Shown in pieces: positions 8,136 to 35,874 of a DNA stretch of 35,993 bases (position 1 is the stretch's first letter; each line of letters begins with the position of its first letter). A model generated the notes under the pieces. It was not told the DNA's origin. It was given only the letters and a program-made list of their open reading frames with translations, and searched no databases. The stretch covers positions 1 through 35,993 of the forward strand of contig NZ_JACYOX010000042.1 of assembly GCF_015352955.1 (NCBI RefSeq). The letters run 5' to 3'. Both the position numbers and the translations under genes were made by a program. This DNA is from Noviherbaspirillum soli (GTDB lineage Bacteria > Pseudomonadota > Gammaproteobacteria > Burkholderiales > Burkholderiaceae_D).

Positions 8136-8150
8136 GACGCGATTTTTTAC

Positions 8151-9791: not shown

Positions 9792-9804
9792 TTTGCGTCA
9801 TTTT

Positions 9805-10425: not shown

Positions 10426-10427
10426 GT

Positions 10428-11696: not shown

Positions 11697-11760
11697 GTTG
11701 CCCTCCACGGAAGGTAAGTCCAGCCATTAGAGCATGCAGTAAATGCAATTACAGCATGTG

Positions 11761-12380: not shown

Positions 12381-12617
12381 ATTCACAGTCTTATTCCTAT
12401 GCGTAAGATAACGCATAAACTGTATCCGGCGTTCTAGAGGGCTATCTCATTCAACACGTTCAAGCACTTGACAAGTTTAGTGACTTAACTGAGTTATCTG
12501 AAATAACAAATAGGAGGAGTTGATTGCCTTCAAACCTTGAAAGGGAGAAATAGATTAAGCTGACTTGCAGTAGCGCATGATCTCAACACAAATATTCAAA
12601 ATTCTGATGGAGACAAG

Positions 12618-14835: not shown

Positions 14836-14890
14836 TTACACATAACTGAATCTGCAGCTGCTGGTTTTATAATTTTTAGTGGAGGCAGTC

Positions 14891-15805: not shown

Positions 15806-15973
15806 AGCATAAATGAATTTCAACGATTAGCGCAGCAAGGTATGATTAGCGAACTTCCAAAAGTTCCGGACGAACTTCATACGCAAACTCTACAAGTTGT
15901 GCGCATTGATTTTTTAGCAATTCACTACAAGGGATTGCTTGTCGTCTTCATCGTCGACGACATTTCTTCTTGA
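15794..15973 (+). CDS. Short hypothetical protein at the IS4 remnant edge
   Basis: A 59-residue frame starts at an ATG in the last bases of the IS4 remnant (MSGVSINEFQRLAQQGMISE) and ends in LLVVFIVDDISS. The first few codons may be IS-derived. I recognise no family and see no good ribosome site. It could be the 3' end of a gene whose beginning was lost to the insertion, or chance. It precedes the dioxygenase gene by 70 bp. Confidence 0.3.
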   Translation: MSGVSINEFQRLAQQGMISELPKVPDELHTQTLQVVRIDFLAIHYKGLLVVFIVDDISS

Positions 15974-16043
15974 TTAGATCCAGCCTTCAAATCGCATGCG
16001 CATTCCTTCGCCTGCGCATGTTTATAAAGAGACAAGCATTGAC

Positions 16044-16877: not shown

Positions 16878-16924
16878 GCGTCATCAGCATTACTATATAC
16901 GGCCACCTAACAAAGGGACTAACT

Positions 16925-17893: not shown

Positions 17894-17927
17894 ATTCGTG
17901 CATTCAATAACCTTTCATGAAGTAAGA

Positions 17928-18014
17928 TCATGCTGCTGATATGATGGGCTTGTTGAGCCGCGCATCGCCCAAGTCGATGCCTGCCAGTTCTTTCTCCGCC
18001 CATTCCTGGCTCAT
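17928..18014 (-). pseudogene. IS4-family transposase, N-terminal stub, right copy
   Basis: Only the first 28 codons remain: MSQEWAEKELAGIDLGDARL, then NKPIISAA and a stop. They match the left copy at 14891 (MSQDWAAQELAGIDLGAARL), and the upstream GGAGGCAGTC and end sequence also match. Similarity breaks just after LNK, so the rest of the element is gone. It reads towards the Bug gene, inverted relative to the left copy. Confidence 0.85.
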
Positions 18015-18083
18015 GACTGCCTCCATCGAAAATCATAGGACGGGCAGCTGCAGATTTAGTTGTGTGTAATGGGGTGCCCTTAG

Positions 18084-18275
18084 TCGCCACATCTGAACCC
18101 GGACGAGCAGGTCTGGGCTCATGTCAAGCGCCGCGTCAGCAAGCAAGCAGTGCAGGGCAAAGAGGACATGAAGAAGCTGGCACTCGGCGCGTTACACCGC
18201 ATTCAAAAACTGCCTCGGCTGGTCAGAGCCTTCAAAGGTGGCCCCGTTCGTTTGGACAGAGACTGGCAAGGCTTA
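18084..18275 (+). pseudogene. IS630-family transposase fragment (C-terminal)
   Basis: The frame reads SPHLNPDEQVWAHVKRRVSK, then MKKLALGALHRIQKLPRLVR. The NPDEQVW-HVK signature is that of the C-terminal DDE region of IS630-family transposases, with the catalytic Glu in PDEQ. A TAG precedes the fragment and an IS3-family element cuts it at about 18275. No promoter end of the IS630 element was found. Confidence 0.78.
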
Positions 18276-18312
18276 AGTGGAACCTTACTGATGATGGGTC
18301 TTTCCCAGTGGC

Positions 18313-19143
18313 CTACGCTGCCCGTTGCATTGCAGGGAGGTGCTTGAAGTAAAACGCATCTGGCGTCATGCCGTCAAGCGAACTATGAGGCCTGCGGCCG
18401 TTGTAGAAGTCGATATACCGTCCAATCCCGCTGCGCGCAGCACTGACTGTCTCGTAGGCGCGCAAGTAGACCTCTTCATACTTGATCGATTTCCAGAGCC
18501 GCTCTACAAATACGTTGTCGCGCCAGCAGCCCCGGCCATCCATGCTGATGGCAATGCCATTTTCCTTGAGGAGCTGGGTGAATTCCTGACTCGTAAACTG
18601 GCTACCCTGGTCGGTGTTGAAGATGTCCGGCTTGCCGTAGCGGTGGATTGCTTCCTGAACCGCCTCAATGCAGAAGTCAGTGGTCAGTGTGTTCGACAGG
18701 CGCCATGCCAGAACGCGGCGGCTGGCCCAATCCATCACGGCAAACAGATAGACGAAGCCTCGCTTCATTGGGATGTAGGTAATATCCGCGGCAAAGACCT
18801 GGTTCGGCAGGCTGATATCCATCTGGCGCAGCAGGTACGGATAGACCGCGTGAGCAGGATGGCGCCGGCTGGTGTTGGGCTTCTTGTACACCGCTTCGAT
18901 GGTCATGTGCTTCATCAGCGTCGTTACATGTTTGCGGCCAATCGCATGGCCGTCTTGTCGCAGCATGTCCCGTAGCATCCGACTGCCAGCAAACGGGTAT
19001 TCCAGGTGCAGTTCGTCGATCCTGCGCATGAGCTCCAGGTCCGTTTCACTGGCCTGCTGAGGACGATAGTAGGCAGTCGAGCGCGCCAGGGAGAGGATCT
19101 GGCATTGCCGTGTCACCGGCAGAGCATGGCTACGGTCGATCAT
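18313..19143 (-). CDS. IS3-family orfB transposase
   Basis: A 276-residue integrase-type catalytic protein. Its N-terminal part (MIDRSHALPVTRQCQILSLA) leads to an HTH_21 segment (RRIDELHLEYPFAGSRMLRD). The rve core follows, with the Asp in VFAADITYIPMKRGFVYLFA, the Asp in FNTDQGSQFTSQEFT, and the Glu in DNVFVERLWKSIKYEEVYL. It ends with the family's NGRRPHSSLDGMTPDAFYF. The ATG overlaps the orfA stop (ATGA), and the overlap AAAGAAATGA also offers a possible -1 shift to make OrfAB. It is uninterrupted. Confidence 0.93.
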   Translation of the reverse strand: MIDRSHALPVTRQCQILSLARSTAYYRPQQASETDLELMRRIDELHLEYPFAGSRMLRDMLRQDGHAIGRKHVTTLMKHMTIEAVYKKPNTSRRHPAHAVYPYLLRQMDISLPNQVFAADITYIPMKRGFVYLFAVMDWASRRVLAWRLSNTLTTDFCIEAVQEAIHRYGKPDIFNTDQGSQFTSQEFTQLLKENGIAISMDGRGCWRDNVFVERLWKSIKYEEVYLRAYETVSAARSGIGRYIDFYNGRRPHSSLDGMTPDAFYFKHLPAMQRAA

Positions 19144-19445
19144 TTCTTTGCGCTCAGCAATCCCGCTTTGGTGAGCGCGCTTCCTAAAAAATCGATTTCC
19201 AGCGCCTGCTGCCCAATCTTTGCGTGCAACACTTTCAGGTCCGGCTCGTTCTCCTTCTTGCTGGCAGTACCGTCGAATACATCAGCAGCCCGCTCCAGCA
19301 GCTGCCGCTTCCATTCGGTCACCGGGGTCGGATGGACTTGGTACTGCTCAGCGATTTCGGTGAGCGTCTTATCGCCACGTAATGCCGCTACGGCCACCTT
19401 GGCCTTAAAGCTGCCTGAGTGGTTCCGTCTGCTTCTCTTTGTCAT
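19140..19445 (-). CDS. IS3-family orfA
   Basis: A 101-residue DNA-binding subunit with a Transposase_8 helix-turn-helix: RNHSGSFKAKVAVAALRGDK, then TEIAEQYQVHPTPVTEWKRQ. A C-terminal coiled-coil follows (ENEPDLKVLHAKIGQQALEI). The start at 19445 (MTKRSRRNHSG) fits the family; the frame remains open to 19499. It ends SAKK with TGA overlapping the orfB start. Confidence 0.9.
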   Translation of the reverse strand: MTKRSRRNHSGSFKAKVAVAALRGDKTLTEIAEQYQVHPTPVTEWKRQLLERAADVFDGTASKKENEPDLKVLHAKIGQQALEIDFLGSALTKAGLLSAKK

Positions 19446-19533
19446 ACGCTTGCTCCTGTATTCGGCCTTGCGACCGAGATTTTGAAGCAAGGTTTCCACT
19501 TATCCATCTGCCCGAATTCCCGGGACCACTTCT

Positions 19534-20238: not shown

Positions 20239-20598
20239 TTATTTTTGCACGGTCAGTGCTGTAACGGTCGGCTGGTTTTCTACGTTTTCGATGGTGACTT
20301 TGACCTTGTCTCCCTCTTTTACCGCTGAAAGAAACGATGCGTTCTCGACAGCAAAAGTCATCGTCATCGCGGGCATCTCGACCGTTTTGCTCTTCAAAGG
20401 GCCGTGCTTGAGCGTGACGGCTTTTCCTGCCTTATCTACTCCTTGCACCACTGCTTCGTTTGTGCCCAGGCTTGCGCCTTTGGAGGCGCCCATTTCCATG
20501 GATCCCTTCTTCATGCTGCTGTTCTGGTCGGCGTATACATTCAGTGCAAGCAGGGCGAAGCCAAATGCAGCGGTGGTTTTAATGAGTGATTTCTTCAT
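20239..20598 (-). CDS. cusF: CusF-like periplasmic copper/silver chaperone
   Basis: A 119-residue secreted protein that would hand Cu(I)/Ag(I) to the CusCBA pump. The signal peptide ends near NVYAD (start [20 protein letters not shown] at 20598, with AAAGGAG upstream). The OB-fold domain has the CusF metal site in [20 protein letters not shown]: His, then the two Met of the PAMTM motif, with the expected aromatic replaced by less clear residues. A Met/Ser/Gly-rich linker ([15 protein letters not shown]) precedes it. The start lies 20 bp before the cusA stop, so it is the last gene of the cusCBAF operon. A second CusF-like domain is fused to CusB. Confidence 0.9.
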
Positions 20599-23500
20599 GG
20601 GGGGACTCCTTTGTGGATGAGGGTGAAAATTCGGTAGTGCGCCGCAGTTTGCGCTCCTGCAGGAGGCGCCAGGCGGCAGGAATAACAAAGAGGGACAGCA
20701 GCGGCGCCGTAAGCATGCCCCCGACCATCGGTGCAGCCAGCCTAGACATTGCCTCATGGCCCGCTTCATGGCCGAACATCAGCGGAATCAAGCTGGCCAG
20801 GATGACGGCAACCGTCATGGCTTTGGGGCGGACACGTTGTACAGCGCCTTCACGGATCGCCTCGACAATCAGTTCCCTGGTCAACGGGCGTCCGGCGTCC
20901 AGCCGCTGCTGGAGCGCATTGCGCAGATAGACCAGCATGACCACGCCGAACTCGGCTGCCAAGCCCGCCAACGCGATGAAGCCGACGGCGGTGGCAACTG
21001 AAACAGCGTGCCCAAGGAGCCAGATGAACCAGAAACCGCCGACCAAGGCAAAAGGCACAGTCAACATCAACAGGAGAGCTTCAGCGACTGACCGAAATGC
21101 CAGGTACAGCAGGAGAAAAATGAGCAGCAGCGTGGCCGGAATGACGCTTTGCAGCCTCGCGGTAGCGCGCTCCATACTCTCGAACTGCCCGGACCAGCCA
21201 ATTGAATAGCCGGGTGGAAGCTTAATTTCCTGGGCGACGGCCGCCTGCATCGCCCTGACTGCCGAGAGCAGATCCGTGCCGCGCACATCCACATAGACCC
21301 AACCGGCAAGCCGGGCATTTTCGCTGCGTATCATGGGTGGTCCGTCAGTCACGCGCACGTCTGCTATGTCAGCCAGCCGGATCTGCGCCCCCTTGTCCGT
21401 AACGACGGGAAGCTCCCGCAAGGACTGCACAGAGTCCCGGTACGCTTGCGGATAGCGCACGTTGATGGGGAAGCGCTGACGCCCCTCAATGAACTCGCCA
21501 ACATTCTCCCCGCCGATCGCTGATGAGACGACGGATTGGACGTCCACCACTGACAAGCCGTATCGAGCGGCCTGCGCGCGGTCGACATTGACATCGATAT
21601 AGCGTCCACCAGTGAGCCGCTCCGCCAAGGCGGAGGTCACCCCGGGCACGTTTTTCACCGCCGCTTCGACCCGGGCTGCGATTTGGTCAATTTGGCCAAG
21701 ATCTGGTCCGGACACCTTCACACCAACAGGCGTCTTGATTCCTGTCGAGAGCATGTCGACCCGATTTCGGATAGGCGGCACCCACACGTTCGACAGGCCC
21801 GGAACCTTGACGACCCGGTCCAGTTCCTCGACCAGCTTCTCCGGGGTCATCCCGGCCCGCCACTGGTCTTTTGGTTTGAACTGGATGGTTGTCTCGAACA
21901 TTTCCACCGGTGCGGGATCCGTGGCTGACTCCGCACGGCCGGCCTTGCCGAACACCGTAGCGACCTCGGGCACCGTCTTGATAAGCCGATCCGTCTGCTG
22001 CAGGAGTTCACTTGCTTTGGATGCGGAAAGCCCCGGCAGTGCCGAGGGCATATACAGTAGGTCCCCTTCATCCAGCGCAGGCATGAACTCGCCGCCAAGG
22101 CGTGAAGTAGGAATGGCGGTCAGGGCAAGGGCCACAACAGCAATGCCAATGGTCCAGCCCGGCCACCTGATGCTGGCTTCCAGTAATGGGCGGTAGACTC
22201 TAATCAGCACACGGTTGATGGGATTGGAAGCCTCGCTGGGAATGCGTCCGCGAATGAAGTAGCCCATCAGGACCGGAACCAGGGTGACGGCCAAACCGGC
22301 AGCGGCAGCGAGTGCGTAGGTCTTGGTATATGCCAATGGCGAGAAAAGCTTGCCCTCAGCTGCTTCCAGCGCGAACACTGGAAGGAATGACAAGGCAACG
22401 ATAAGAAGCGAGAAGAACAACGCCGGCCCTACCTCAATGGATGCGGCAATTATTACGTCCCATCGTTCTTTATCATTGATTTTCCGGCTCGGGTGGGCAT
22501 GCGTATAGGCCTCCAGGTGCTTGTGAGCGCTATCGACCAGGACGACTGCGGCATCGGTCGCTGCGCCGATGGCAATGGCAATGCCGGAAAGTGACATCAC
22601 GTTGGCATTGACGCCCTGGTATCGCATCACGATGAAGGCAGCGAGCACTGCGACTGGGAGCGAGACAATGGCCACCAGCGAACTGCGGAAATGGAACAAG
22701 AAGACTGCACAGACGACGGCGACCGCAATAAATTCCTCGATGAGCTTGCTGCGAAGATTGCCCACCGCAGCGTTGATCAGGTTCGATCGGTCGTAGGTAG
22801 TTACCACTTCAACGCCATTGGGTAGGGATGCCTTCAACGTCTCCAGTCGCGCTTTGACTGCGGCAATGGTCTCCAGCGCGTTTTTTCCGGTGCGCATCAC
22901 GACCACGCCGCCGGCGACTTCGCCCTGGCCATTCAGTTCGGCGATACCGCGGCGCATTTCCGGCCCCAAACGGACGGTGGCCACGTCGCGTAGCAGGACG
23001 GGCGTCCCAGTGTCGCTAGCACTCAGAAGCACATTACGGAAGTCTTCCAAAGAGCGCAGATACCCGCGCGAGCGCACCATGTATTCCGTCTCGGCCATTT
23101 CGACGACGGAGCCGCCCGTTTCCTGGTTAGCTTTGCCCAGCGCTTCGAGTACCTTGGCGTGCGAAATGCCGAATATACGTAGCTTGTCCGGGTCGAGGAC
23201 GACTTGGTATTGCCTGACCATGCCACCGATGCTGGCAACCTCGGCAACGTCTGGAACGGTTTTAAGCTCATACTTCAGAAACCAGTCATTCAGCGCCCGT
23301 AGCTGGCTCAAGTCATGTTGGCCAGTGCGGTCGACAAGGGCGTATTCATAGACCCAGCCTAGCCCTGTGCCATCCGGCCCGAGTTCCGCCCGTACACCCT
23401 GCGGCAGGCGGCTTTGCACCTGACTCAGGTATTCGAGCACCCGAGAACGCGCCCAATACAAATCGGTGTTGTCGTCAAAAAGCACATAGATGAACGAATC

Positions 23501-23767
23501 CCCGAAGAATGAATATCCCCGGACTGTGCTGACGCCTGGCACGGATAACAGGGCGGTGCTGAGCGGGAACGTCACCTGGTCTTCAATGAGTTGAGGCGAC
23601 TTACCGGGCAACGACGCCCGGATGATTACCTGGGTCTCGCCAATCTCGGGCAAAAAGTCGAGAGGCAACGTCGCTACAGCCCGCACGCCGACGATCAGAA
23701 TCACTGCGGTCGCCAATAACACCCAGACCCGATTGGCAATAGATGTACGAATGATCCGTGCAATCAT
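20579..23767 (-). CDS. cusA: CusA-type heavy-metal RND efflux pump
   Basis: A 1062-residue inner-membrane proton-driven transporter exporting Cu(I)/Ag(I). It starts [20 protein letters not shown] and shows the HME-RND layout of 12 membrane helices with two large periplasmic loops. The proton-relay Asp lies in the fourth helix region ([20 protein letters not shown]). The three Met of the CusA metal path are recognisable by context, in [23 protein letters not shown] and [13 protein letters not shown], which argues for monovalent copper/silver rather than Co/Zn/Cd. The ATG overlaps the cusB stop (ATGA), giving tight coupling. No cusRS regulators are in the window. Confidence 0.95.
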
Positions 23768-25299
23768 TTCTTAGTCCCGGCAGCGGGCACGACGCTCTCC
23801 AGCACGTACGAGCCGTTCTTACCTTCCTTGAACGAAAACTCGAATTCCTGGCCCACCTGGGCATGGGAGAAGGCGTCCGGGCTTGGCTTGGCAAAGTCCA
23901 TGGTCATCGCCGGCCATTTCAACTCAGGAATAGGCTTATGGGAAAAGGTAATACTTTCCGGGGATACCTTTTCGACCTTGCCGAGACCGCGGTAGACCGG
24001 CGACATGCTCGTGGAGGTGGGCTCGGAAACCGCACTTCCTTGTGCTCGTGCTGCGCTGGCTAACTTTGGCAGAACTCCCTTGAGGCTGGCTTCCGAATCA
24101 ATCAGGAATTGCCCGGAAGCGACTACCTTCTGGCGTTCTTGCAAGCCGCTCAGGATTTCGGTGTCGTCGCCAATATCGCGCCCAGTCGTAACCGTCACCG
24201 GCTGCATGCTGTTGTTGTCGCCGGCGACCAGCACCACCGATCGCTTCCCCGTCGTGATGACAGCTTCGGTCGGCACTAGCAGCCGGGAAACCGGCTTGTC
24301 GGCACCGAGACGAACGCGCATGAGCATTCCCGGCGTCAGGCTGCCGTTCTTGTTGTCCAATTCAAGGCGGGCTTGTACGGTCCGCGTGCTCGTGCTGACA
24401 CCCGGCAGAATTTCGCGCACCTTGCCGGTATATTTTCGATTCGCATCGCCAGCAGGCGCAGCTTCTACCGACATACCAGCCCGTGCTGAACTGGCCAGGG
24501 CTTCCGGTACTTCCGCAACCAGCCAGACCTTATTCAGGCCGGCGACTTTCGCCACAGTCATTCCCGGAGACACCATTGCGCCCTCACGCACTGCCAGCTC
24601 AGTGATGACGCCCGTAACTGGCGACGCCAGCGTCAGGTGGCTCTGGGCTTTCCCGGCACGCTCAGCCTGGGTAACCAGTCCCGGAGGAATGGAAAGGGCC
24701 TGCATCCGCTGGCGAGAGGCCGTAGTCAACTCGTCGTTCCCTGACCGTTTGAGCGCCAGGTATTCCTCCTGTGGTCCAATCCAGTCCGGCACGAACAGCG
24801 AGGCAATCGGCTCGCCGCGCTTGACGCGTTGCATCGGTGCGCGCGCATACAGTTGGTCGATATAGCCGGTCACTCGGCTTTGAACGACTTCAGAGATGCT
24901 TTCGTCGAATTGAGTCGTGCCGACCACCTCAAAGGACTCTCGGGTTTCCGCGCGCCGTACGGTGGCAAACCGAATGCCCAAGTTCTGCTGCAGTGTCGAG
25001 GTGACCTTCACGCCAGCATCGGACCCGGCTTCGTCTGCATAGACTGGGACCAACTGCATGTCCATAAACGGGGACTTGCCCGGCTTATCAAATTTCTGGC
25101 CAGGCACCATCGGGTCGTGCCAGTACAGCACTTTTCGGCCGGTGTTTGGGTCAATCTTGTCGCCGGCTGGTGCGGAAGCGGCGGCCGGCGTGGCAGATTT
25201 CCCTATGCCTTGGTGCATGCCGACCCAGTAACCGCCATAGGCTAGTCCGGCGCCAGCCATCGCGAGAGCCAGTGCTTTTGCTGCGATGTTCGATTTCAT
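23764..25299 (-). CDS. cusB: CusB-type membrane-fusion protein with fused CusF-like domain
   Basis: The 511-residue periplasmic adaptor links CusA to CusC. An N-terminal anchor ([20 protein letters not shown]) is followed by a heavy-metal-binding segment, [20 protein letters not shown], then MDMQLVPVY. The barrel-sandwich hybrid follows, with the region [20 protein letters not shown] and the lipoyl-like [20 protein letters not shown]. After the usual end near residue 415 there is an extra ~95-residue domain, [20 protein letters not shown] then [12 protein letters not shown]. This carries the CusF His and Met-x-Met pattern (with the Trp of the cation-pi site). The fusion means the complex has its own tethered chaperone besides the free CusF. 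Both ends overlap neighbours by ATGA. Confidence 0.95.
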
Positions 25300-26612
25300 T
25301 GGTCGATCCTCCGGATACCTGCATGATCATGCGGGATAACGTGGTATTCGAGCTTGGCCCAAGTAGTGGCCGCCTCTTTCTCGACATCCAGCACTTGCAT
25401 CTGCGCGTCCAGGGCCATCCGTTTGGCGTTGAAGACCGCCGCTAAGCTGCCGGTGCCCGACCTATAGGCCGCCATGGCCAACTCGACCTGCTGGTTTGCC
25501 GTGGGCAAAAGCTCCTTTTTCAACCGGGATACCCGCTCTTGCAGGCTGGACAGGGTCACGGACTGGTCTTGGAGCTCGGCTTGCAGCTCCCGCAAAGCAT
25601 CTTCGTATTGCATTCGGGCCTTCGTGCCAAGTGCTGACTTTTCGGCGATGTCGCGGTCCTGTCTCTGCGCGCGGTTGACTGGAATTGGGATGCTGACGCC
25701 GACCGATACCATGTTGGAATACTGGCTGCCCCTCTGGGCGAATCCGGCTTCAAAGGACCAGTCCGGCCGGCGTTCTGTCGTGGCCACCGTCGTCTCGGCG
25801 TCAGCGAGGGTGATGGCTCGACGTGCGCTCAAGAGCATCGGATGGTATTTCTCCAGTTCTTCGACTGGCAGACTTGGCACATGAGAGGTTAGGGGCGGAA
25901 GAGTACCGACCACGGTTTCGACAGGGACCGCGACCCAGCGAGCCAAGGCCGTCCGGGCGCTTTTAAGCACTTGCTCCTCTTTCCGGGTGCGGTCCTGTGC
26001 CTGCGACAAAGCCAACTGGGTTTGAAGGACGTCGGCAGCGCCGGCTTTCGCGCCACGCAGCGCCGCTTGCCCAGTGGCTAAGTCTTGGCTCGTTTCATTC
26101 TCCAAGCCCTTCAGCAGTTCAAGGGAACGCTTGGCAAAGAAGAGGTTTATCCATGCAACAGCCGTTTCCTCCCTCACTTTGGCGACGTTGGTCAGGTAAT
26201 TGGCTTCCTCGGCATCAACGGCGCGTTCCCCACGTTCAACGCGTGCGGTGCGCTTGTCGGCAGAAATCCACTGCTGCTCAATTCCGACACGGCGCTGAGT
26301 CATGAAATCGCGCGTCAGGCTGTACCTGTCTGGTCCTGTCACGGGCAGGTTGTCGACGCCAAATTTCAGCATCGGGTCCGGCAGTTGGTTAGCCTTGGCC
26401 ACCATTTCCCGGCTTGCCTGCACTGAAGCGGCGGCTGCTTGGCTCGAAGCCGATCGCTGGGTTGCGAATTGAAGTGCCTGGCCCAGGGTAAGGGCTGAGC
26501 TTTGGGCGTAACCGAACGCCGGGATAAGGATTAACACCACGAAGGTGCCCAAGCGGTAGGGGTGACGCGCGTGGCTATCGAGCGCCGGCGACGCTTTGAC
26601 ATTAAAAAACAT
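25296..26612 (-). CDS. cusC: CusC/TolC-type outer-membrane factor
   Basis: A 438-residue outer-membrane channel of the CusCBA system. A long signal peptide ends near IPAFGYAQS. Two OEP repeats of coiled-coil helices follow: SALTLGQALQFATQRSASSQ, and AAASVQASREMVAKANQLPD with PMLKFGVDNLPV, then the second repeat ARRAITLADAETTVATTERR with PDWSFEAGFAQRGS. The start at 26612 is preceded by AGGAG. It lacks an evident N-terminal Cys for lipidation, unlike E. coli CusC. It heads the four-gene operon and overlaps cusB by four bases. Confidence 0.92.
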   Translation of the reverse strand: MFFNVKASPALDSHARHPYRLGTFVVLILIPAFGYAQSSALTLGQALQFATQRSASSQAAAASVQASREMVAKANQLPDPMLKFGVDNLPVTGPDRYSLTRDFMTQRRVGIEQQWISADKRTARVERGERAVDAEEANYLTNVAKVREETAVAWINLFFAKRSLELLKGLENETSQDLATGQAALRGAKAGAADVLQTQLALSQAQDRTRKEEQVLKSARTALARWVAVPVETVVGTLPPLTSHVPSLPVEELEKYHPMLLSARRAITLADAETTVATTERRPDWSFEAGFAQRGSQYSNMVSVGVSIPIPVNRAQRQDRDIAEKSALGTKARMQYEDALRELQAELQDQSVTLSSLQERVSRLKKELLPTANQQVELAMAAYRSGTGSLAAVFNAKRMALDAQMQVLDVEKEAATTWAKLEYHVIPHDHAGIRRIDQ

Positions 26613-27857: not shown

Positions 27858-28070
27858 TCATCCGCAGCAGCCGCGCTGCTCCTGAATTGGGGGACATTTG
27901 GCCGAGCCATAAGAGCAGTAGACGCAGCAATCACCTTCTTTCGGACGGAGAACTGTCTTGCAGTTCTCGCATTCGTAGAAGAACTGGCATGCATCCGTCG
28001 GCATGATTTCTGACTTTACATGCCCACACATCGGGCAAGTCAATAAAGATTGATAGCTGGTCGTTGCCAT
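27858..28070 (-). CDS. GDCCVxC-motif small zinc-ribbon-like protein
   Basis: A 70-residue Cys-rich protein. It begins MATTSYQSLLTCPMCGHVKS with one CxxC pair, then YECENCKTVLRPKEGDCCVY (second CxxC) and CSYGSAKCPPIQEQRGCCG. The GDCCVxCSYG...CPP signature defines a conserved small family of unknown function that also has selenocysteine-containing members. In this copy all positions are Cys codons, with no internal TGA. In other genomes it accompanies metal-resistance genes, which fits its position beside cus genes. Eleven Cys suggest metal binding or thiol chemistry. Confidence 0.85.
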   Translation of the reverse strand: MATTSYQSLLTCPMCGHVKSEIMPTDACQFFYECENCKTVLRPKEGDCCVYCSYGSAKCPPIQEQRGCCG

Positions 28071-29069: not shown

Positions 29070-29099
29070 AAAATTCTGGTACAATCGGTCCAGAATTTT
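29070..29099 (+). promoter_or_regulatory. Palindromic TetR operator over the -10 box
   Basis: A perfect inverted repeat with 10-bp arms, AAAATTCTGG at 29070-29079 and CCAGAATTTT at 29090-29099, is separated by 10 bases. The spacer begins with TACAAT (29080-29085), a good -10 hexamer. It lies 17 bp before the TetR start. It is the likely autoregulatory operator: bound repressor would cover the -10 element. Confidence 0.85.
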
Positions 29100-29116
29100 T
29101 GAGGGGTAAGTTGTCC

Positions 29117-29689
29117 ATGGCACGACATTTGGAATTCGATCGCAATGAAGTTGTTGCACGCGCAGTCGACGCATTCTGGCAGGCCGGTTATGAATCTTTG
29201 CCTGCGCTTGAAATTGCGGAGGCAATGGGCGTTGCGAAATCTTCGCTATACAACACGTTTGGTTCAAAGCGAAATCTTTTCATTGAATCAGTAGACCATT
29301 ACGCCGATAGCCAGCGTTCGAAGGTCGTCGCGCGCTCTAAAAGCGAGAACGTGGGGGAATTATTGCGCCAGATGCTGCTGGATGTGATTACTGACAACTA
29401 CGCGGGCCGCGGCTGTTTCCTGGTGAACACGGCTGCCGACTTCGGGGCACGTGATGAGGAAGTTCGTCAACACGTCAAGGCTGGTTTCGACGGGATGATA
29501 GACGCATTCACAACACTTATTCGCGCTGGGCAAGAGACCGGTCAAATCAAATCCGACGTGAACCCGCAGCAATATGCTGTCATTCTAGTGACGGGCATTT
29601 CTGGCTTGCGCGTTCTGGTTAAGGGCGGATATTCATCGGTTGAACTGGACCCTGTGATTGAAAACATGTTGGCCGGATTACTGAAATAA
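29117..29689 (+). CDS. TetR/AcrR-family repressor
   Basis: A 190-residue regulator. ATG 29117 has GAGGGG upstream. The DNA-binding domain reads MARHLEFDRNEVVARAVDAF, then EIAEAMGVAKSSLYNTFGSK. The ligand domain contains GRGCFLVNTAADFGARDEEV, with a single Cys in a position common in this subfamily and possibly reactive to electrophiles. It heads a co-directional set (AhpD-like, dehalogenase-like, Old Yellow Enzyme), a layout comparable to nemR-nemA. I infer derepression by reactive electrophiles or quinones; the true ligand is unknown. Confidence 0.93.
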   Translation: MARHLEFDRNEVVARAVDAFWQAGYESLPALEIAEAMGVAKSSLYNTFGSKRNLFIESVDHYADSQRSKVVARSKSENVGELLRQMLLDVITDNYAGRGCFLVNTAADFGARDEEVRQHVKAGFDGMIDAFTTLIRAGQETGQIKSDVNPQQYAVILVTGISGLRVLVKGGYSSVELDPVIENMLAGLLK

Positions 29690-29757
29690 ATTTTTTATCT
29701 ATTTTGGACTGGAATGACCAAAATCGTGCGTCATTCCATTTTTCTCAGGAGCTGATG

Positions 29758-30333
29758 ATGACTAACATTGCAAAACTTTCTCTTCCGCCTACTACCCTCG
29801 AGACTGCCGAAGGCCGGACCAAAGAGGTATTGGAGGCAGGTAAAAAGTCGGCAGGTGGTATTCCCAATATGTATGCTGGAATGGCGAACTCGCCTGCATT
29901 GCTCGATACCTATCTGCATGGTTATCAACTTTTTCGTCGGGAATCCGGCTTTACGGCGGCCGAGCAGGAGCTGGTCTTCCTGAGCATCGCGCGTGTCAAT
30001 GAGTGCACGTATTGTGTTGCAGCACACAGCTTCCTCGCGGGTGCTGTCTCGAAAACGCCTGAACAAGCTGTCCAGGCGGTCCGCAATGACTCCATCATCG
30101 AAGATGCGAAGTTGGCGGCATTGAGCGCCTTTACCCAAACGATGGTTTCCTCACGCGGCAAGCCGACGCCAGACCAATTGGAAGCGTTTTTGGCGGCGGG
30201 CTATACCGAGAATAACGTGCTGGAAATTATCCTCGCGATTGCCGTCAAAACGATCAGTAACTACGCCAATCACGTTTTGCGTACCCCAGTGGATGCCATG
30301 TTCCTGTCGCAGGCCTGGTCCCCCAAAGCATGA
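29758..30333 (+). CDS. AhpD-like carboxymuconolactone-decarboxylase-family protein
   Basis: A 191-residue protein of the AhpD/CMD fold. ATG 29758 is 6 bases from AGGAG; ATG 29755 is too close. The active-site pattern E-x-C-x-x-C-x-x-x-H is present in ARVNECTYCVAAHSFLAGAV. AhpD-type enzymes use this Cys pair as a peroxidase or disulfide reductase. The segment GGIPNMYAGMANSPALLDTY is typical of the family. It is the first gene after the TetR repressor, with a gap of 68 bp, and is probably controlled by it. Likely role: reduction of peroxides or electrophile adducts. Confidence 0.9.
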   Translation: MTNIAKLSLPPTTLETAEGRTKEVLEAGKKSAGGIPNMYAGMANSPALLDTYLHGYQLFRRESGFTAAEQELVFLSIARVNECTYCVAAHSFLAGAVSKTPEQAVQAVRNDSIIEDAKLAALSAFTQTMVSSRGKPTPDQLEAFLAAGYTENNVLEIILAIAVKTISNYANHVLRTPVDAMFLSQAWSPKA

Positions 30334-30449
30334 ATTAACGTGACGGATCCTCTATCAGTAGGACATGACCCGTCGCCTAAAGGGTAAATAGTCGGCGCGC
30401 CCCGCCGGGCTCACCACCTTATCGTTGATCGTACCTATTGGAGCCAAAA

Positions 30450-31139
30450 ATGAGTCAATCAAGCAAGCGCGAGCGCATAATCGTCTTTGATGTCAATGAA
30501 ACACTGCTCGACATTGAAATATTGGAGCCGTTTTTTGAGCGAGTCTTTGGTGATGCTCGCGTCATGCGACAGTGGTTCGCTGAACTGATTCTTTACTCTC
30601 AAGCCCTGAGCTTGAGCAGCCGCTATGCGCCTTTCGGTCAACTCGCGGTGGCTGTACTCAAGATGGTTGCTGAAATAAAAAACGTATCACTGACGGCCGA
30701 TGATCTCGAAGACTTCAAGGACGTTATGGGTCGGTTACCCGCCCACCAGGACGCTGCGCCAGCTCTCGAAATGCTCAGGAGTGCAGGATTTCGCCTCGTG
30801 ACCTTGACGAACTCAGCACCCGAGGCTGGCCAGGCAGTTCTTCAAAAGGCTGAGCTGTCGCAGTATTTTGAAAAACAATTCTCGGTCGATGCAGTGAAGC
30901 GTTTTAAACCTGCCGTTGAAACCTATAGCAGCGTAGCGTCGGCGCTGGGCGCTGACCCCAGCGCCCTGCGATTGGTTGCGGCTCATACCTGGGACACTCT
31001 GGGCGCGCTGGCGGCGGGGTGGAAGGCTGCATTGTTAATCCGTCCAGGAAATGCGCCCTTGCCGGTCGGCGATCAACCCGACGTCATAGAAAAGGACTTG
31101 CTGGTAATTGCGCGCCGCATCATCACCATAGACCAGTAG
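30450..31139 (+). CDS. HAD-superfamily (S)-2-haloacid dehalogenase-like protein
   Basis: A 229-residue cytoplasmic hydrolase, start MSQSSKRERIIVFDVNETLL at 30450 with GGAG upstream. Motif I is FDVNETLLD with the nucleophilic Asp. Motif II is LVTLTNSA. The motif III Lys is in VKRFKPAVETYSSV. Motif IV is VAAHTWDTLGALAAGW, where His-Thr stands in place of the Ser-Asn seen in classical 2-haloacid dehalogenases, so the substrate may differ. It follows the AhpD-like gene by about 115 bp in the same direction and could remove halogen from compounds also handled by the ene-reductase downstream. Confidence 0.88.
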   Translation: MSQSSKRERIIVFDVNETLLDIEILEPFFERVFGDARVMRQWFAELILYSQALSLSSRYAPFGQLAVAVLKMVAEIKNVSLTADDLEDFKDVMGRLPAHQDAAPALEMLRSAGFRLVTLTNSAPEAGQAVLQKAELSQYFEKQFSVDAVKRFKPAVETYSSVASALGADPSALRLVAAHTWDTLGALAAGWKAALLIRPGNAPLPVGDQPDVIEKDLLVIARRIITIDQ

Positions 31140-31248
31140 GCAAAGTTTGTCTTCGCGGCTGGGGAATGCGGTATTCCGTTTCATTCAGGAAACTGCCCTT
31201 GTCTGGGCCGAAACAACGACTTAAGACTAAATTTTTTTATTGACCAAT

Positions 31249-32349
31249 ATGAATCCAACTGAAAACCAATCAAAGCTTTTTATGCCGGCCGTACTCGGCT
31301 CCATTCCACTTCGAAACCGTATCGTGATGGCACCGTTGACGCGCAGTCGCGCCGAGGCGGGCAATGTGCCACATGAACTCAACGCGCGTTATTATGCGCA
31401 ACGCGCATCTGCTGGCTTGATCATTTCGGAGGCAACCCAGATCAGCTCGCAAGGCCAAGGTTATCCAAAAACGCCCGGCATCCACAGCGACGCACAAATC
31501 GCTGGATGGCAGTTAGTCACAAACGCCGTCCATGAGTGCGGCGGCAAGATTTTTCTTCAATTATGGCATGTGGGGCGTATCTCGCATCCAGTGACATTGG
31601 GAAAAGGCGAAGTGCCGGTGGCGCCTTCTGCCATCAAGCCGGCTGGCGAGATTTATACTGACCAGGGGATGCGGCCATTTGTGACACCGCGCGCTCTTGC
31701 GATCGACGAGATTCCGGCCTTGATTGAAGACTTCCGCATTGCAGCGACAAATGCCAAGGCAGCCGGCTTCGATGGCGTCGAAATTCATGCCGCCAACGGT
31801 TACTTGATTGATCAGTTCCTCCGGGACGGCACGAATAAACGCGAAGATGCTTACGGTGGCTCCGTCGACAATCGAGCACGCCTTCTGCGCGAAGTGACCG
31901 AGGCGGTCCTGTCAGTCTGGGAACCCGGCCAAGTCGGCGTTCGAATCTCGCCAACGAACCCGTTCAACGATATTGCTGACTCCAGTCCGCAAGCTACGTT
32001 TGACGTAATTGTTGAGCAACTCAACCGCTATAGCTTGGCTTACCTTCACGTGGTGGAAGACCGCACGGACGGCTTTGATTATCAGCAGCTCCGACAAATA
32101 TTCAACGGGGCCTACATGGCCAACGGTGGGTATCAACGCGACAGTGCAATTGCCGCGATTGAAGAAGGCAGCGCTGATTTTATTGCCTTCGGCAAGCTTT
32201 TCATTGCCAATCCTGACCTTCCCCAGCGCCTCCGTCTAAATACAGAGTTCAATCCGCCGCGTGAGGAATTGTTTTACGCTGGCGGTGCGGAGGGCTACGA
32301 TGATTACCCATCGTTAAGAGGAACTGCAGAAAGGGAAGCAAGCCTGTAG
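31249..32349 (+). CDS. Old Yellow Enzyme-family FMN ene-reductase
   Basis: A 366-residue NAD(P)H:flavin oxidoreductase of the NemA/xenobiotic reductase type, reducing activated C=C bonds or nitro groups. Key segments are PLRNRIVMAPLTRSRAEAGN, RASAGLIISEATQISSQGQG, the LQLWHVGRISHP motif, and GVEIHAANGYLIDQFLRDGT with the substrate-binding His/Asn pair. ATG 31249 is chosen; a TTG nine bases upstream is possible and neither has a strong ribosome site. The last seven codons (AEREASL) lie inside the 89-bp repeat, so the C-terminus after YDDYPSLRGT seems to be provided by repeat DNA. Confidence 0.93.
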   Translation: MNPTENQSKLFMPAVLGSIPLRNRIVMAPLTRSRAEAGNVPHELNARYYAQRASAGLIISEATQISSQGQGYPKTPGIHSDAQIAGWQLVTNAVHECGGKIFLQLWHVGRISHPVTLGKGEVPVAPSAIKPAGEIYTDQGMRPFVTPRALAIDEIPALIEDFRIAATNAKAAGFDGVEIHAANGYLIDQFLRDGTNKREDAYGGSVDNRARLLREVTEAVLSVWEPGQVGVRISPTNPFNDIADSSPQATFDVIVEQLNRYSLAYLHVVEDRTDGFDYQQLRQIFNGAYMANGGYQRDSAIAAIEEGSADFIAFGKLFIANPDLPQRLRLNTEFNPPREELFYAGGAEGYDDYPSLRGTAEREASL

Positions 32350-32414
32350 TCTGATCAAGACAAACGAAGTTTTCGAAAGCGATTTGTCGAAGATACGATG
32401 AATCGCTTTAAAAA
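32326..32414 (+). repeat. 89-bp dispersed repeat, copy 2
   Basis: This copy matches 8047-8135 without gaps at about 81% identity. It begins inside the Old Yellow Enzyme gene, supplies its last codons and stop (32347-32349), and ends five bases before the end of the convergent sigma-factor gene. It contains a perfect 9-bp inverted repeat, AAAGCGATT and AATCGCTTT, around a 16-base loop. Here it lies between two convergent genes. Confidence 0.85.
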
Positions 32415-32419
32415 ATGGC

Positions 32420-32953
32420 TTATAGAGGTTCTGAGCCAACCATATATTCCCGCACGAGTTCCCTGGCGCGATGCAGCCGGCTCTTGATAGCACCAGGTTG
32501 TTCGCCGAGGCGTTGTGCAATCTCGCCGATCGTGAGCTCTTCGAAGTCCCGCAACAGCACGACTTCAAGATAATGGGCTGGCAAGGATTCAAGCGCGTTG
32601 GCCAGATCAATCCGGAGTGACTCGTCAGTGCGACTTGCCAGCTGGTGTTCGGCCAGATCTTCTTCTAGCGACTCATGCCTGAACATCATGCGTTCCAGTT
32701 TGCGGCATTCACGCTTGATGACGGTAAATAGCCAAGAGGAGAAAGCTATGGCCGCTCTAAGTCCGGTTACCTTGCGCGAAATGATCAGCAGTGACTCCTG
32801 GACGGCGTCATCAATGTCGCTGACGCGGCAGTGCCTGCGTGCATAGCGGCGAGCATCCGCCTGGCACACAGCGAGTAAGCGGGAGATCGCCACCTGGTCT
32901 CCTGCCTGTGCGGCCAGGATGAGGTTTTCCCGTTCCATGACATCGGCGACCAT
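32420..32953 (-). CDS. ECF-family RNA polymerase sigma factor
   Basis: A 177-residue group IV sigma factor. AGGAGG lies nine bases before ATG 32953. Region 2 is at residues ~10-80 (AAQAGDQVAISRLLAVCQAD, DIDDAVQESLLIISRKV and FSSWLFTVIKRECRKLERMM). Region 4 is at ~115-170 (ALESLPAHYLEVVLLRDFEE, LTIGEIAQRLGEQPGAIKSR). It recognises GAACC-type -35 boxes in this family; such a box with matched downstream bases occurs in front of this gene and two neighbours. No anti-sigma gene is adjacent. Cys in AVCQAD and RRHCRV and in KRECRK could be a redox or metal switch, but this is a guess. Confidence 0.94.
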   Translation of the reverse strand: MVADVMERENLILAAQAGDQVAISRLLAVCQADARRYARRHCRVSDIDDAVQESLLIISRKVTGLRAAIAFSSWLFTVIKRECRKLERMMFRHESLEEDLAEHQLASRTDESLRIDLANALESLPAHYLEVVLLRDFEELTIGEIAQRLGEQPGAIKSRLHRARELVREYMVGSEPL

Positions 32954-33075
32954 CGTTCACTGCCTCCTGTCGAGTTTGTGGTGATGCCAGGCGCACTTCC
33001 AACCTAGGATAGGCTTCATGTATAACATTCCGGTCTCCTCGGAGGGGTAAGGTTCGATGGCATCGCTTTATTGCT

Positions 33076-33105
33076 AAGAGTCGCCAAGCTCTCAAAACGG
33101 TTCGC
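33076..33105 (-). promoter_or_regulatory. ECF-type promoter of the sigma gene (motif A)
   Basis: On the minus strand GCGAACC (33099-33105) is followed at a fixed distance by CTCTT (33076-33080). Counting from the base after GCGAACC, T4, G6, TT at 12-13, C16 and CTCTT at 19-23 are shared with motifs B and P. It lies 123 bp before the sigma start, implying autoregulation. Confidence 0.8.
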
Positions 33106-33162
33106 AGAAACTATAAAGTATTTTGGTCGTGGATCGGCAATTGACAGCGATGGCTAATCGCA

Positions 33163-33891
33163 TTAAAAGCGTGTCGTCAAACCAGTCAACCAAGTCGGGG
33201 AGTGCTCGACCAGCCATGTCTCAACCGGTTTGTCTGCTCCGGAGAGGATCATGACCGCGATGGCGACCATCATGGCGCCCATGACGATCTTTCCAGTCTT
33301 CCCTGCTTGCATAAGTTTGCCGCGTGCCTTCATCATCGCCGTGCGGGAAAGGTAAGCCAAGCCAACCACTGGTATCGCTGCGCCAAGGCCGAAGACGCCC
33401 ATGAGCAGGGCAGCTTGAGGAAGGTGGGCACCCTGGCTGGCCAACACAATAGCAGCACCAAGCGTCGGGCCGACGCAAGGGCTCCAGACTACGCCGAGGG
33501 CAAGACCAATGACGAATTGTCCGCTAAGGCCGTTAAGCGTGAGTCGGGACACAAGATCGTTGCCGACATTTCCGATTCCAGATGTCGCCGAAGCGAAGCG
33601 CTGCTGCAGGCTTGTCGACATTAGTACTAATCCCAACAGACCAACAAGAGCGGCGCCCACGCTCCTGAAGCCGGCAACGTCGAAGCCAACCGCTGAGCCG
33701 CTCCAGGCGATCAACGTGCCGATAAGGGCATAGGAGAACGCAAGGCCAGTGGCGAGCGCCACGGGAGCGCGAGGATGCGCGGCCAAAGCTGAGCTTAGCA
33801 GGACCGGCAGGATTGGTAGCACGCAGGGCGACAGCGTGGAAAGCATGCCAGCCAGCAAACCAAAGCCATAGGAGCCGAGGCCGAAGTCCAT
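33163..33891 (-). CDS. CcdA/DsbD-like transmembrane thiol transporter
   Basis: A 242-residue inner-membrane protein with about six helices that would carry electrons from cytoplasmic thioredoxin to the periplasm. Its two redox Cys are in LSTLSPCVLPILPVLL and VVWSPCVGPTLGAAI, the symmetric SPC-V-x-P motifs of CcdA. The start codon overlaps the stop of the upstream periplasmic thioredoxin gene by one base (TGATG). The natural partner is therefore that thioredoxin. It is smaller than DsbD and lacks the fused end domains. Likely job: keeping the thioredoxin-like protein, and through it a Cys-rich client, reduced. Confidence 0.93.
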   Translation of the reverse strand: MDFGLGSYGFGLLAGMLSTLSPCVLPILPVLLSSALAAHPRAPVALATGLAFSYALIGTLIAWSGSAVGFDVAGFRSVGAALVGLLGLVLMSTSLQQRFASATSGIGNVGNDLVSRLTLNGLSGQFVIGLALGVVWSPCVGPTLGAAIVLASQGAHLPQAALLMGVFGLGAAIPVVGLAYLSRTAMMKARGKLMQAGKTGKIVMGAMMVAIAVMILSGADKPVETWLVEHSPTWLTGLTTRF

Positions 33892-34274
33892 CAGTTAGCA
33901 GCCTTCCTGAAGATATTCTCGATGCCGGTGGGCGTTGTGTCGCCAACCGAGCGGCCGGTTTCCTTACCGCCCTTGAATGCGATCAAAGTGCTTTGTGACG
34001 TTACCTTGAAGTGCTTCAGCACTGCTTTGTCGGCATCAAAATCCGCCATCAGGACGGCTACCCCTTTGTAGGGTTCCTGTTTGGAAAGGCTTTCGACAAT
34101 GGGTTTCTGGGCTTTGCACGTCGGGCACCAGGTAGCTGAGACATCTACCACGACTGGCTTGCCGTCCTTTGCCAACTGGTCGAATTCCGTCTGCGTAAAC
34201 GGTTTTGGTTCGGCGGCCGAGGCCATTGTTGCGCAGAAGGCGAGTGCTGCAGCAAGGATTTGGGTCTGTTTCAT
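33891..34274 (-). CDS. Exported thioredoxin-like protein
   Basis: A 127-residue protein with signal peptide MKQTQILAAALAFCATMASA and a thioredoxin fold. The active site WCPTC is in VVDVSATWCPTCKAQKPIVE; the Thr of STLIAFKGG occupies the usual cis-Pro neighbourhood, where Pro is expected but not seen. The start at 34274 is preceded by AAGGAGAA. It is coupled to the ccdA-like gene, and its promoter (motif B) matches that of the sigma gene. I infer reduction of cysteines in a periplasmic client, perhaps the divergent Lys-Cys-rich peptide. Confidence 0.93.
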   Translation of the reverse strand: MKQTQILAAALAFCATMASAAEPKPFTQTEFDQLAKDGKPVVVDVSATWCPTCKAQKPIVESLSKQEPYKGVAVLMADFDADKAVLKHFKVTSQSTLIAFKGGKETGRSVGDTTPTGIENIFRKAAN

Positions 34275-34347
34275 GTGATTCTCCTTAGTGGATGGGTTGT
34301 TGGTTGATGCTGCATAGAATCAGTTCTTTGCGTTGTGGTTGGAAGCA

Positions 34348-34377
34348 AAGAGCAGGTAAGTCGTCGAAACGGTTCGC
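34348..34377 (-). promoter_or_regulatory. ECF-type promoter of thioredoxin-ccdA (motif B)
   Basis: On the minus strand GCGAACC (34371-34377) is followed by CTCTT (34348-34352) with the same 18-base gap as in motif A. The first 11 bases GCGAACCGTTT are identical in A and B. It lies 74 bp before the thioredoxin start. Confidence 0.8.
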
Positions 34378-34432
34378 GACCGGTAAATCTTTTTTACTGC
34401 CCTAATGGCAAACCGAAAATTTTTCTCGGCCC

Positions 34433-34462
34433 GCGAACCCGATTGCGAAGTTATCTCCTCTT
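34433..34462 (+). promoter_or_regulatory. ECF-type promoter of the Lys-Cys peptide operon (motif P)
   Basis: On the plus strand GCGAACC (34433-34439) is followed by CTCTTA (34458-34463), again with the 18-base gap, and by the shared T4, G6, TT12-13 and C16. It lies 48 bp before the peptide start and points away from motif B. The two form a back-to-back pair, 55 bp apart. Confidence 0.8.
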
Positions 34463-34509
34463 ACCGGATGAGGCCAATCCTCATTTATTCATTCACCAAG
34501 GAAAAATCC

Positions 34510-34752
34510 ATGAAAACCCAACTGAAAATGGCGTCGCTGGCCGCTTTGACCGCCGCTACTCTGGCCTTGCCTGCTGCGGCCGAAGAGGCTTCGGCACCTG
34601 CTAAGTGCGCACCGAGCGCTATGGCAAAATGTGGCGCAAAATGCGGGTCAAAATGCCACGCAAAAAAAGATTCCACGAAGAAGGACGGTAAGTGCGGCGC
34701 CAGTAAATGTGCTGCCAAGTGCGGCGCCAACAAGTGCGCGCCCAAGAACTGA
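34510..34752 (+). CDS. Exported peptide with eight Lys-Cys pairs (candidate bufferin/HvfA-like or metallothionein-like)
   Basis: An 80-residue protein, ATG 34510 with AAGGA upstream. Signal peptide MKTQLKMASLAALTAATLAL is cleaved near PAAAEE. The mature ~56 residues consist mostly of Ala, Gly, Lys and Cys with eight Cys, each directly preceded by Lys, arranged in two blocks: AKCAPSAMAKCGAKCGSKCH and GKCGASKCAAKCGANKCAPK, joined by a KKDSTKKD linker. Four KCG units resemble the EGKCG repeats of HvfA-type peptides that MNIO enzymes modify to bind copper. No MNIO gene lies in the window. It could also act unmodified as a periplasmic metal buffer. The regulator and redox genes nearby, and the next gene 5 bp downstream, fit a dedicated peptide system. 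Confidence 0.85.
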   Translation: MKTQLKMASLAALTAATLALPAAAEEASAPAKCAPSAMAKCGAKCGSKCHAKKDSTKKDGKCGASKCAAKCGANKCAPKN

Positions 34753-34757
34753 GTTAG

Positions 34758-35447
34758 ATGCAGAAAAAGCGATTGCGCTTGTCCAATGCTGCCGCCAATG
34801 AGGCGGCGGCATTTCGCTTGCTTGAAACCTACACGGTCTTGGCAGTGCAACGAAAGCATTTGCTAGGAAGGCTACTGGACGGGCGATCCCCGCAGCAATG
34901 GGCACACTATCCGGAAATGGACGCCATTGACCGATCCAGCGGCTACCAATGGTTTTACCACTCTCATAGTGCTGAGGATCGGTCAGTTTCCATCGAACAC
35001 GGACATATCCATCTCTTTGCCCGAAAGCCACTCTGGGGCAGAAGGCGGCACTCAAAATCAGAGAAAGCATTTGCGGAATTGTGTGGCAGCCACTCTGAAA
35101 AGCCAGAAACAAGACATCTGTTAGCCATAGGATTTGACGGAAAAGGACTTCCTGTCTCTCTTTTTACTGTCAACAGCTGGGTAACGGGCGATCTGATGCT
35201 AGGAGCGGATTTAACTGTTGAATTGCTCAGATCGATGAAGCTCGACACTGGTCAAGCCGAAATTGATACGATCATCGAGTCGGTCATTCAGCTATTCGTG
35301 CCAGAGTTGAAGAAGTTGATGCAGCAACGAGACGATGTGCTGCGAGAACATCCGGGGCCAAACAAGTTGGCTGATCAATCACTGGAATTGCTATCAATAG
35401 TCGAAATTGATTTGGACATGAAATTAGCGAAGATCGGGACTATATAA
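34758..35447 (+). CDS. Uncharacterised protein coupled to the Lys-Cys peptide (DUF6969-like)
   Basis: A cytoplasmic-looking 229-residue protein without signal or membrane segments. It starts five bases after the peptide stop without its own good ribosome site, so it is translationally coupled. Notable are the clustered aromatic/His motifs GYQWFYHSHSAEDRSVSIEH and GHIHLFARKPLWG (H-S-H, E-H-G-H-x-H, possible metal site), then RHLLAIGFDGKGLPVSLFTV, NSWVTGD and a helical C-terminus with PELKKLMQQRDDVLREHP. From memory this resembles an uncharacterised domain (DUF6969); I cannot verify that. Given its position it may process, bind or help export the peptide. Confidence 0.8.
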   Translation: MQKKRLRLSNAAANEAAAFRLLETYTVLAVQRKHLLGRLLDGRSPQQWAHYPEMDAIDRSSGYQWFYHSHSAEDRSVSIEHGHIHLFARKPLWGRRRHSKSEKAFAELCGSHSEKPETRHLLAIGFDGKGLPVSLFTVNSWVTGDLMLGADLTVELLRSMKLDTGQAEIDTIIESVIQLFVPELKKLMQQRDDVLREHPGPNKLADQSLELLSIVEIDLDMKLAKIGTI

Positions 35448-35874
35448 TTCCCATACTTCAAGAAAATGCGCTGGACCTGGTTAGCCTGGCTACCAATCCG
35501 ATAGCGATGGTCAGCGCATCAGGATACGAATGACCTGTGATGAAAAATGTTCTGCTCAGATGGTAAGAGACATGTGCTTGCTTAGCAACTTGCCCTGAAG
35601 GTCCTACGTCTAATCGGTCGATGCTTTGGAATAAGCGGCCAGCAAAAGAAGCTTGTAGTTTAGTCTATGTAGCAAAAACCATATCAAAATTACCACTAGC
35701 GCTCTACCCTCACATGGTGCAAAACCAAATAACTTACTGCAACAAGTCGCACGCGTCGCCTTAGTAGAGCAGTGTAGGTATGCTGGTTCACCGCCAATGC
35801 TTTGCAACCGGGATTAAAAATAGTTTGGTGCTCTGCAAATATCATCCATATGAAACGAAAAACGGTGAGCTATA
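35448..35874. other. Stretch without a recognised gene
   Basis: No convincing frame was found. Early in it, ATGCGCTG (about 35465) and CAGCGCAT (about 35512) form an inverted repeat with a long loop, and no T tract follows, so I do not call a terminator. The stretch ends at the left end of an IS256-like element. Confidence 0.4.

Follow-up and report, generated by a model that had tools for sequence, protein, structure and literature searches.

A candidate ECF sigma regulon with a conserved promoter motif and a lysine-cysteine peptide module in Noviherbaspirillum soli

What does a short sigma factor control when the same promoter-like motif stands before its own gene and before two neighbouring units? 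The question is raised by a stretch of 35,993 nucleotides from Noviherbaspirillum soli (assembly GCF_015352955.1, contig NZ_JACYOX010000042.1), which is called the window below. It carries a gene for an extracytoplasmic function (ECF) sigma factor, a thioredoxin-ccdA operon, and an operon for a peptide with lysine-cysteine (KC) repeats and a DUF6969 protein. The original prediction held that one sigma controls all three units. As far as sequences can tell, this claim is strongly supported: the motif follows the sigma gene through its relatives and is seen again in front of the KC gene and of the thioredoxin operon. The best explanation of the locus, and in our judgement a likely one, is an autoregulated ECF sigma regulon for a periplasmic thiol-peptide defence. 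The regulon part is predicted with good support, and the role is probably defence against copper-like or other thiol-reactive stress, a signal and a chemistry that we infer.

The promoter motif in the window and in the genome

The three motifs, each consisting of GCGAACC, 18 bases and CTCTT, lie exactly where they had been reported, and all three 30-mers have zero mismatches. The putative promoter of the sigma gene is at 33076-33105 (minus strand), that of the thioredoxin-ccdA operon at 34348-34377 (minus) and that of the KC-peptide operon at 34433-34462 (plus). The start codon of the sigma gene follows CTCTT after 122 bases, that of thioredoxin after 73 and that of the KC peptide after 47. 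No fourth exact copy exists in the window, and a scan of the whole assembly (5.6 Mb, 105 contigs, 99.8% complete) likewise finds just these three copies in 5,613,803 bases, all within 1.4 kb, against 0 for the reversed control pattern. By motif, no further target appears to be indicated in this genome. Positions 32000-35500 of the window contain no known RNA element.

Looser matches in the window are background, since 26 matches with three mismatches or fewer were observed and 33.6 were expected. In the assembly, there is no excess beyond the three sites at one mismatch, where 15 sites (the three included) were counted as compared with 16 for the control. A matrix built from 56 sites of relatives, with the window excluded, scores the three sites at 32.2, 31.8 and 29.6 and the next best place in the window at 2.5; the 56 sites were collected by the core pattern, so these scores favour the core columns. 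With the same matrix, the best score in 30 Markov-randomised windows is 15.9 and the mean of their maxima is 6.9. All three promoters are supported by the exact pattern and the matrix, together with the upstream test in relatives for the sigma gene and the sites of relatives for the two operons.

Within the spacer, T4, G6, TT12-13 and C16 had also been described as shared. This is true of all three window sites, but TT12-13 is hardly kept in relatives. In a set of 44 distinct sites from near relatives, T4 is found in 84%, G6 in 77% and C16 in a moderate 61%, while positions 12-13 are T in 47% and C in 40%. The C directly 5' of CTCTT is conserved in 88% of the same sites.

The motif in relatives of the sigma factor

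Because the pattern was derived from the window sites, it was tested on other loci. The sigma protein was used to scan one genome per species; of 99 relatives, the best 80 were kept, with identities of 40-85% (cited below by L numbers), and the 79 with enough upstream sequence entered the upstream tests. Neighbouring genes were identified with tblastn or by text patterns unless a Pfam or NCBIfam match is named. The degenerate motif GCGAAYC-N18-CTCTW precedes the sigma gene in 57 of the 79 relatives (25 of 39 at an identity of at least 64%, and 32 of 40 below). The same boxes with spacers of 8-17 or 19-28 bases occur in none of the 79, nor do they occur on the opposite strand, and 200 shuffled sets give an average of 0.005. 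The motif with its 18-base spacer accompanies the sigma gene across beta-proteobacteria and into relatives from Shewanella, Bradyrhizobium and Myxococcus, and it is kept upstream of the gene down to about 45-50% sigma identity, with the GCGAATC form common in distant relatives. On a Cupriavidus plasmid stretch (L171), the motif stands together with thioredoxin, ccdA and the YgaP-like gene described below.

Two other origins of the motif were weighed at this point. The sites could be bound by another regulator, with the sigma factor as a mere neighbour, as boxes and spacing are known from sequence alone. The two boxes, the AAC-type -35 element, the fixed spacing and the orientation toward the genes argue against this, as does the conservation upstream of the sigma gene itself, which is what an autoregulated ECF promoter shows; we consider it very improbable. 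Chance, or duplication of one intergenic segment, might be proposed as two of the sites share one divergent intergenic region. However, the spacers differ at most positions, the sites are kept in other genera and the spacer test speaks against it, so that its probability is close to negligible. We return to the preferred regulon, in which the sigma factor would direct RNA polymerase to GCGAAYC-N18-CTCTT before its own gene and the operons for thioredoxin-CcdA and KC peptide-DUF6969.

The two target operons were followed in relatives as well. KC relatives were defined by at least four KC in a frame of less than 200 residues, which gives 21; L092, whose repeat is EGKCG, was not counted. In 15 of the 21, the motif lies 47-63 bases before the KC start. 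Three more have it with one mismatch (L039, L053 and L057), and the KC gene comes straight after sigma in L063, L064 and L066. For the thioredoxin gene, present in 17 relatives, the motif is found within 200 bases in five and within 800 bases in 15; L051 and L070 have none within 800 bases.

In 399 genomes of the same order, the exact pattern occurs in 80, and lone matches are mostly background because the reversed control is widespread too. Of the 399, 15 have a sigma match with an E value of 1e-30 or lower. All six genomes with a sigma at least 73% identical (our own genome included) have an exact copy just upstream of it; the other nine (47-66%) have no exact copy near sigma, the scan there being confined to the GCGAACC form. 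In genome G212, an additional copy precedes genes for a protein that appears to be exported and for a GDCCVxC protein (L154), therefore the regulon is not limited everywhere to the units described here. A further copy in genome G144 lies inside an open frame and is probably due to chance. For this ECF group, of which no description was found in the literature, the promoter is nearly unambiguous, and targets can therefore be read from the sequence in many genomes.

The sigma factor and its usual membrane partner

The sigma factor (32420-32953, minus strand) has 177 residues with cysteines C30, C42 and C83. It is a short protein of regions 2 and 4 only, with both matches above the Pfam cut-offs (Sigma70_r4_2, E 3e-14; Sigma70_r2, E 1.7e-7), and thus belongs to the ECF (group 4) factors. 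An own promoter of the target type and an adjacent anti-sigma gene are both usual for ECF factors, though not obligatory. The first is predicted here from the sequence only. As for the second, no anti-sigma gene stands beside sigma in the window, where only the remnant of a YgaP-like gene is left. The original prediction missed this lost gene, the partnership of DUF6969 with the peptide, and the links to bufferins and cytochromes.

In 67 of the 80 relatives, a gene that encodes a small membrane protein of the YgaP-like kind, in most cases with a CPMC or CPAC motif, lies between promoter and sigma and ends shortly before the latter. This is why the motif stands 251-315 bases before sigma in 52 of the 57 relatives that have it, as compared with 122 in the window. 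All six of the relatives' proteins tested, with 67-74 residues, match PF11127 (the YgaP-like transmembrane family, a two-helix domain with CPxC) at E values from 7e-17 to 8e-12. In the window, 23 codons at approximately 32959-33030 (minus strand) are left. They can still be aligned with the 69-codon gene in the nearest relatives (L033, L035 and L036) at the ribosome site, the start and the end, and the middle is gone, a net in-frame loss of 46 codons. The 23-residue remnant matches no family, PF11127 included. On a sigma tree of 46 rows with an identity of at least 56%, presence and absence of the YgaP-like gene require six changes, at least two of which are forced by well-supported branches. 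The gene in L086 is cut by the contig start, and the one before sigma in L099 (4759-4953) has an in-frame stop near its start.

The YgaP-like CPxC protein is probably the usual sensor in relatives, and it may act as sensor or anti-sigma. As only a remnant is left in the window, control of the sigma factor would have to come from elsewhere. A second YgaP protein of the sigma type acting in trans was considered and rejected, as the genome encodes just one more PF11127 match, which carries CPLY instead of the sigma-linked CPMC or CPAC. Control here might instead act through the sigma factor's own C42 and C83. In an alignment of 24 of the 81 sigma sequences (window included), both cysteines are present in all 24, with or without a YgaP-like gene, and C30 is present in 17. 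Our own genome has ten sigma-region matches, and the three others that align over the cysteine stretch lack both cysteines. ECF factors that sense metal themselves, via other cysteines, are described in the cited excerpts (PMC8999054, PMC9023288). CorE/CorE2 (PMC8999054) and OrbS (PMC9023288) resemble our factor in having conserved cysteines in sigma and in perhaps needing no separate anti-sigma; unlike here, where C42 and C83 lie in domain 2, their cysteines are reported there as C-terminal, with an additional linker CXC in CorE. No cysteine follows C83, and so the cysteine-rich C-terminal domain of the CorE type (ECF238) is absent. EcfQ of Bradyrhizobium was rejected as a described relative, since its promoter boxes and spacing differ in the cited excerpt (PMC3420878). 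A literature search found no description of the sigma/YgaP-like pair, and papers on DUF2892 with a sigma factor, judged by their listed entries, appeared unrelated.

The peptide, its partner proteins and the probable role

The KC-repeat peptide (34510-34752, plus strand), as read directly, has 80 residues, with eight cysteines each following a lysine and an apparent signal peptide judged by eye. It has no Pfam match above cut-off; its relatives keep the leader and KCGAKC or KCAPKC repeats. Five bases after its gene begins that of the DUF6969 protein (34758-35447, plus, 229 residues), which matches PF22308 at E 4.7e-52 with 176.9 bits against a curated cut-off of 27. A DUF6969 gene adjoins the KC gene in 20 of the 21 relatives. 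Across the 399 genomes, there are 27 DUF6969 places in 25 genomes, and eight of them (our own included) have a KC-type gene in the adjoining DNA examined, hence DUF6969 also occurs without the peptide. In L007 (161-2199, plus), genes for thioredoxin, ccdA and DUF6969 stand in a row, with no KC gene in the DNA examined there. Among 20 diverse DUF6969 sequences, from which L044 was left out for a stop in its frame, H50, D55, D58, H68, H70, H83, H85, H120, N139, W141 and R191 are invariant. Six of these residues are histidines, and the set suggests a metal site. Searches gave no solved homologue (best E 0.82), no viral relative among 39 candidate stretches, 167 plasmid records, all below 60% identity, and, in the literature searched, no paper naming DUF6969.

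On the other side of the divergent region lie a thioredoxin of 127 residues (33891-34274, minus strand; Thioredoxin, E 1.5e-14), with an apparent signal peptide judged by eye, and, overlapping at its start, a CcdA/DsbD-type transmembrane electron carrier of 242 residues (33163-33891, minus; DsbD_TM, E 2e-11). CcdA and a periplasmic thioredoxin bring electrons to periplasmic thiols, and the pair may serve those of the KC peptide. In the proposed mechanism, the peptide would be exported, and its eight periplasmic thiols would bind soft metals such as copper or be oxidised instead of other targets. Electrons carried outward by CcdA and thioredoxin would keep the thiols reduced, and DUF6969 may process or load the peptide.

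The thioredoxin operon could also have another purpose, the maturation of a periplasmic c-type cytochrome, with CcdA-thioredoxin as the reductant of the haem-binding cysteines and the KC peptide in an accessory role. Indeed, in nine relatives a cytochrome c gene (CASCH) lies between motif and thioredoxin, complete-looking in L035, L036, L039, L040, L043, L045 and L046 and partial in L044 and L069; the L036 protein matches SoxA/TsdA-type cytochrome c. In L063 (5583-6155, plus), the KC repeat is fused to such a domain in one protein. The window, however, has no cytochrome gene at that place, a candidate for its relocation elsewhere in the genome was rejected as a weak match only (36% identity, E 3e-4), and the other KC relatives lack the gene there as well. 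We therefore regard cytochrome maturation as unlikely. Judged by their listed entries, none of the papers on sigma factors together with ccdA, thioredoxin, cytochrome c and cysteine-rich or periplasmic features fitted.

For the preferred thiol-peptide defence, a metal role is favoured by MNIO/bufferin-type genes, which stand beside sigma in five of the 80 relatives. Four of these loci (L049, L052, L055 and L057) contain relatives of an MNIO cluster, and the fifth, L092, has an MNIO-like gene together with a peptide of EGKCG repeats. By Pfam, MNIO is confirmed for L052 and L057, and DUF2282 for L055 and L057. A single locus, L057 (2348-4740), contains the motif, the YgaP-like gene, sigma, the KC-DUF6969 genes and a DUF2282-MNIO operon, and this bufferin operon has a motif copy of its own (3547-3576, minus). 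The targets point to a module of peptide and DUF6969 and to what may be a new class of sigma partner, with both linked to the bufferin copper peptides.

The kind of system, an autoregulated ECF regulon, is known, and several of its parts look new. In the cited excerpts, sigma-F/NrsF of Caulobacter controls a heavy-metal regulon through the promoter GTAACC-N16-CGAA (PMC3511200). Common to both are the small size of the regulon, with a sigma that acts on its own promoter and on a few operons, and, counted as a likeness, the tie to heavy-metal stress with an activity set by cysteines of a membrane protein. The boxes and spacing of that ECF16-type factor differ from GCGAAYC-N18-CTCTT, NrsF is absent here, and the membrane partner in our relatives is YgaP-like and lost in the window. 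The bufferin/MNIO systems, including gigPABT-rpoQ-rsqA of Cupriavidus metallidurans, share cysteine peptides, putatively exported in our case, with a partner protein, a nearby ECF sigma and cytochrome c fusions, as described in the excerpts of PMC12452194 and PMC10304878. Unlike them, the KC peptide matches no bufferin family tried (it has no DUF2282 match and, by reading, no EGKCG repeat), its genome has no MNIO and its partner is DUF6969. A bolder proposal, which we put forward tentatively, is a new ECF signalling unit. In it, the two-helix YgaP-like CPxC protein would sense thiols or metal and also serve as the anti-sigma of a factor whose own two cysteines are invariant. DUF6969 would be a metal-dependent enzyme of a new kind, turning KC-repeat peptides by modification into metal-binding peptides or redox peptides. 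Enzyme and peptide would thereby parallel MNIO and bufferins, with one sigma group over both.

The same regulon could also serve a different chemistry. The KC peptide would then sacrifice its thiols to scavenge reactive chlorine or electrophiles and be recycled by CcdA-thioredoxin, rather than buffer metal. This would be the cysteine equivalent of the cycle of MrpX and methionine sulfoxide reductase. A peptide and its reductant under one ECF sigma resemble sigF/nrsF-mrpX-yedYZ as excerpted (PMC4623255), where an ECF sigma controls a sulfur-rich periplasmic peptide and its recycling reductant, an arrangement predicted here from the genes; the differences are cysteine for methionine, CcdA-thioredoxin for methionine sulfoxide reductase and another sigma partner. 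Genes for TetR-like, AhpD-like, HAD type II and old-yellow-enzyme proteins beside sigma in the window (29099-32349, plus strand) also favour this idea. Their block recurs beside sigma in L034 at 59-80% identity and, without the old yellow enzyme, on an E. coli plasmid stretch (L170), whose sigma stands behind TetR, HAD and AhpD-like genes. On the other hand, the bufferin/MNIO-type neighbours favour a metal role, and the block is rare near sigma (TetR, HAD and old yellow enzyme in two of the 80 relatives each), though AhpD-like genes reach 11. Scavenging is possible, but we doubt it.

A number of observations weigh against the regulon and metal-defence explanation that we prefer. The degenerate motif has no exact match before sigma in 22 of the 79 relatives. 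Eight of these have it with one mismatch at spacer 18 and four with two; L056 fits best at spacer 19 with one mismatch; and nothing close stands before sigma in L033, L034, L051, L065, L083, L085, L087, L091 and L101. In L034, L065 and L101, sigma lies directly behind ccdA and the motif before thioredoxin. Many relatives are close kin, with about 20 rows of the Bradyrhizobium type, so the 57 motif-bearing relatives are not 57 independent events. The plasmid stretch L170, with a sigma 68% identical, has neither the motif (best fit four mismatches) nor a YgaP-like gene, and some members of the group are therefore wired differently. Our own genome has no MNIO (PF05114, 0 matches) and no NrsF (PF06532, 0 matches, where the control search matches in Caulobacter); MNIO modification of the KC peptide and NrsF control of sigma were accordingly rejected for it. 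The genes at 29099-32349 point as strongly to stress by electrophiles or oxidants as to metal, and the functions proposed for DUF6969 and the YgaP-like protein are guesses.

Further from the sigma gene, a GDCCVxC-domain protein is encoded at 27858-28070 (minus strand), and a relative of it lies near sigma in six of the 80 loci. An operon for a heavy-metal RND efflux system of the CusA/CzcA family occupies 20579-26612 (minus), with no ECF motif before it; its adaptor is CusB-like, though below the cut-off of its model, and has a CusF-like C-terminal match. Several open frames at 5349-19499 are transposase-like by eye, suggesting a mobile region.

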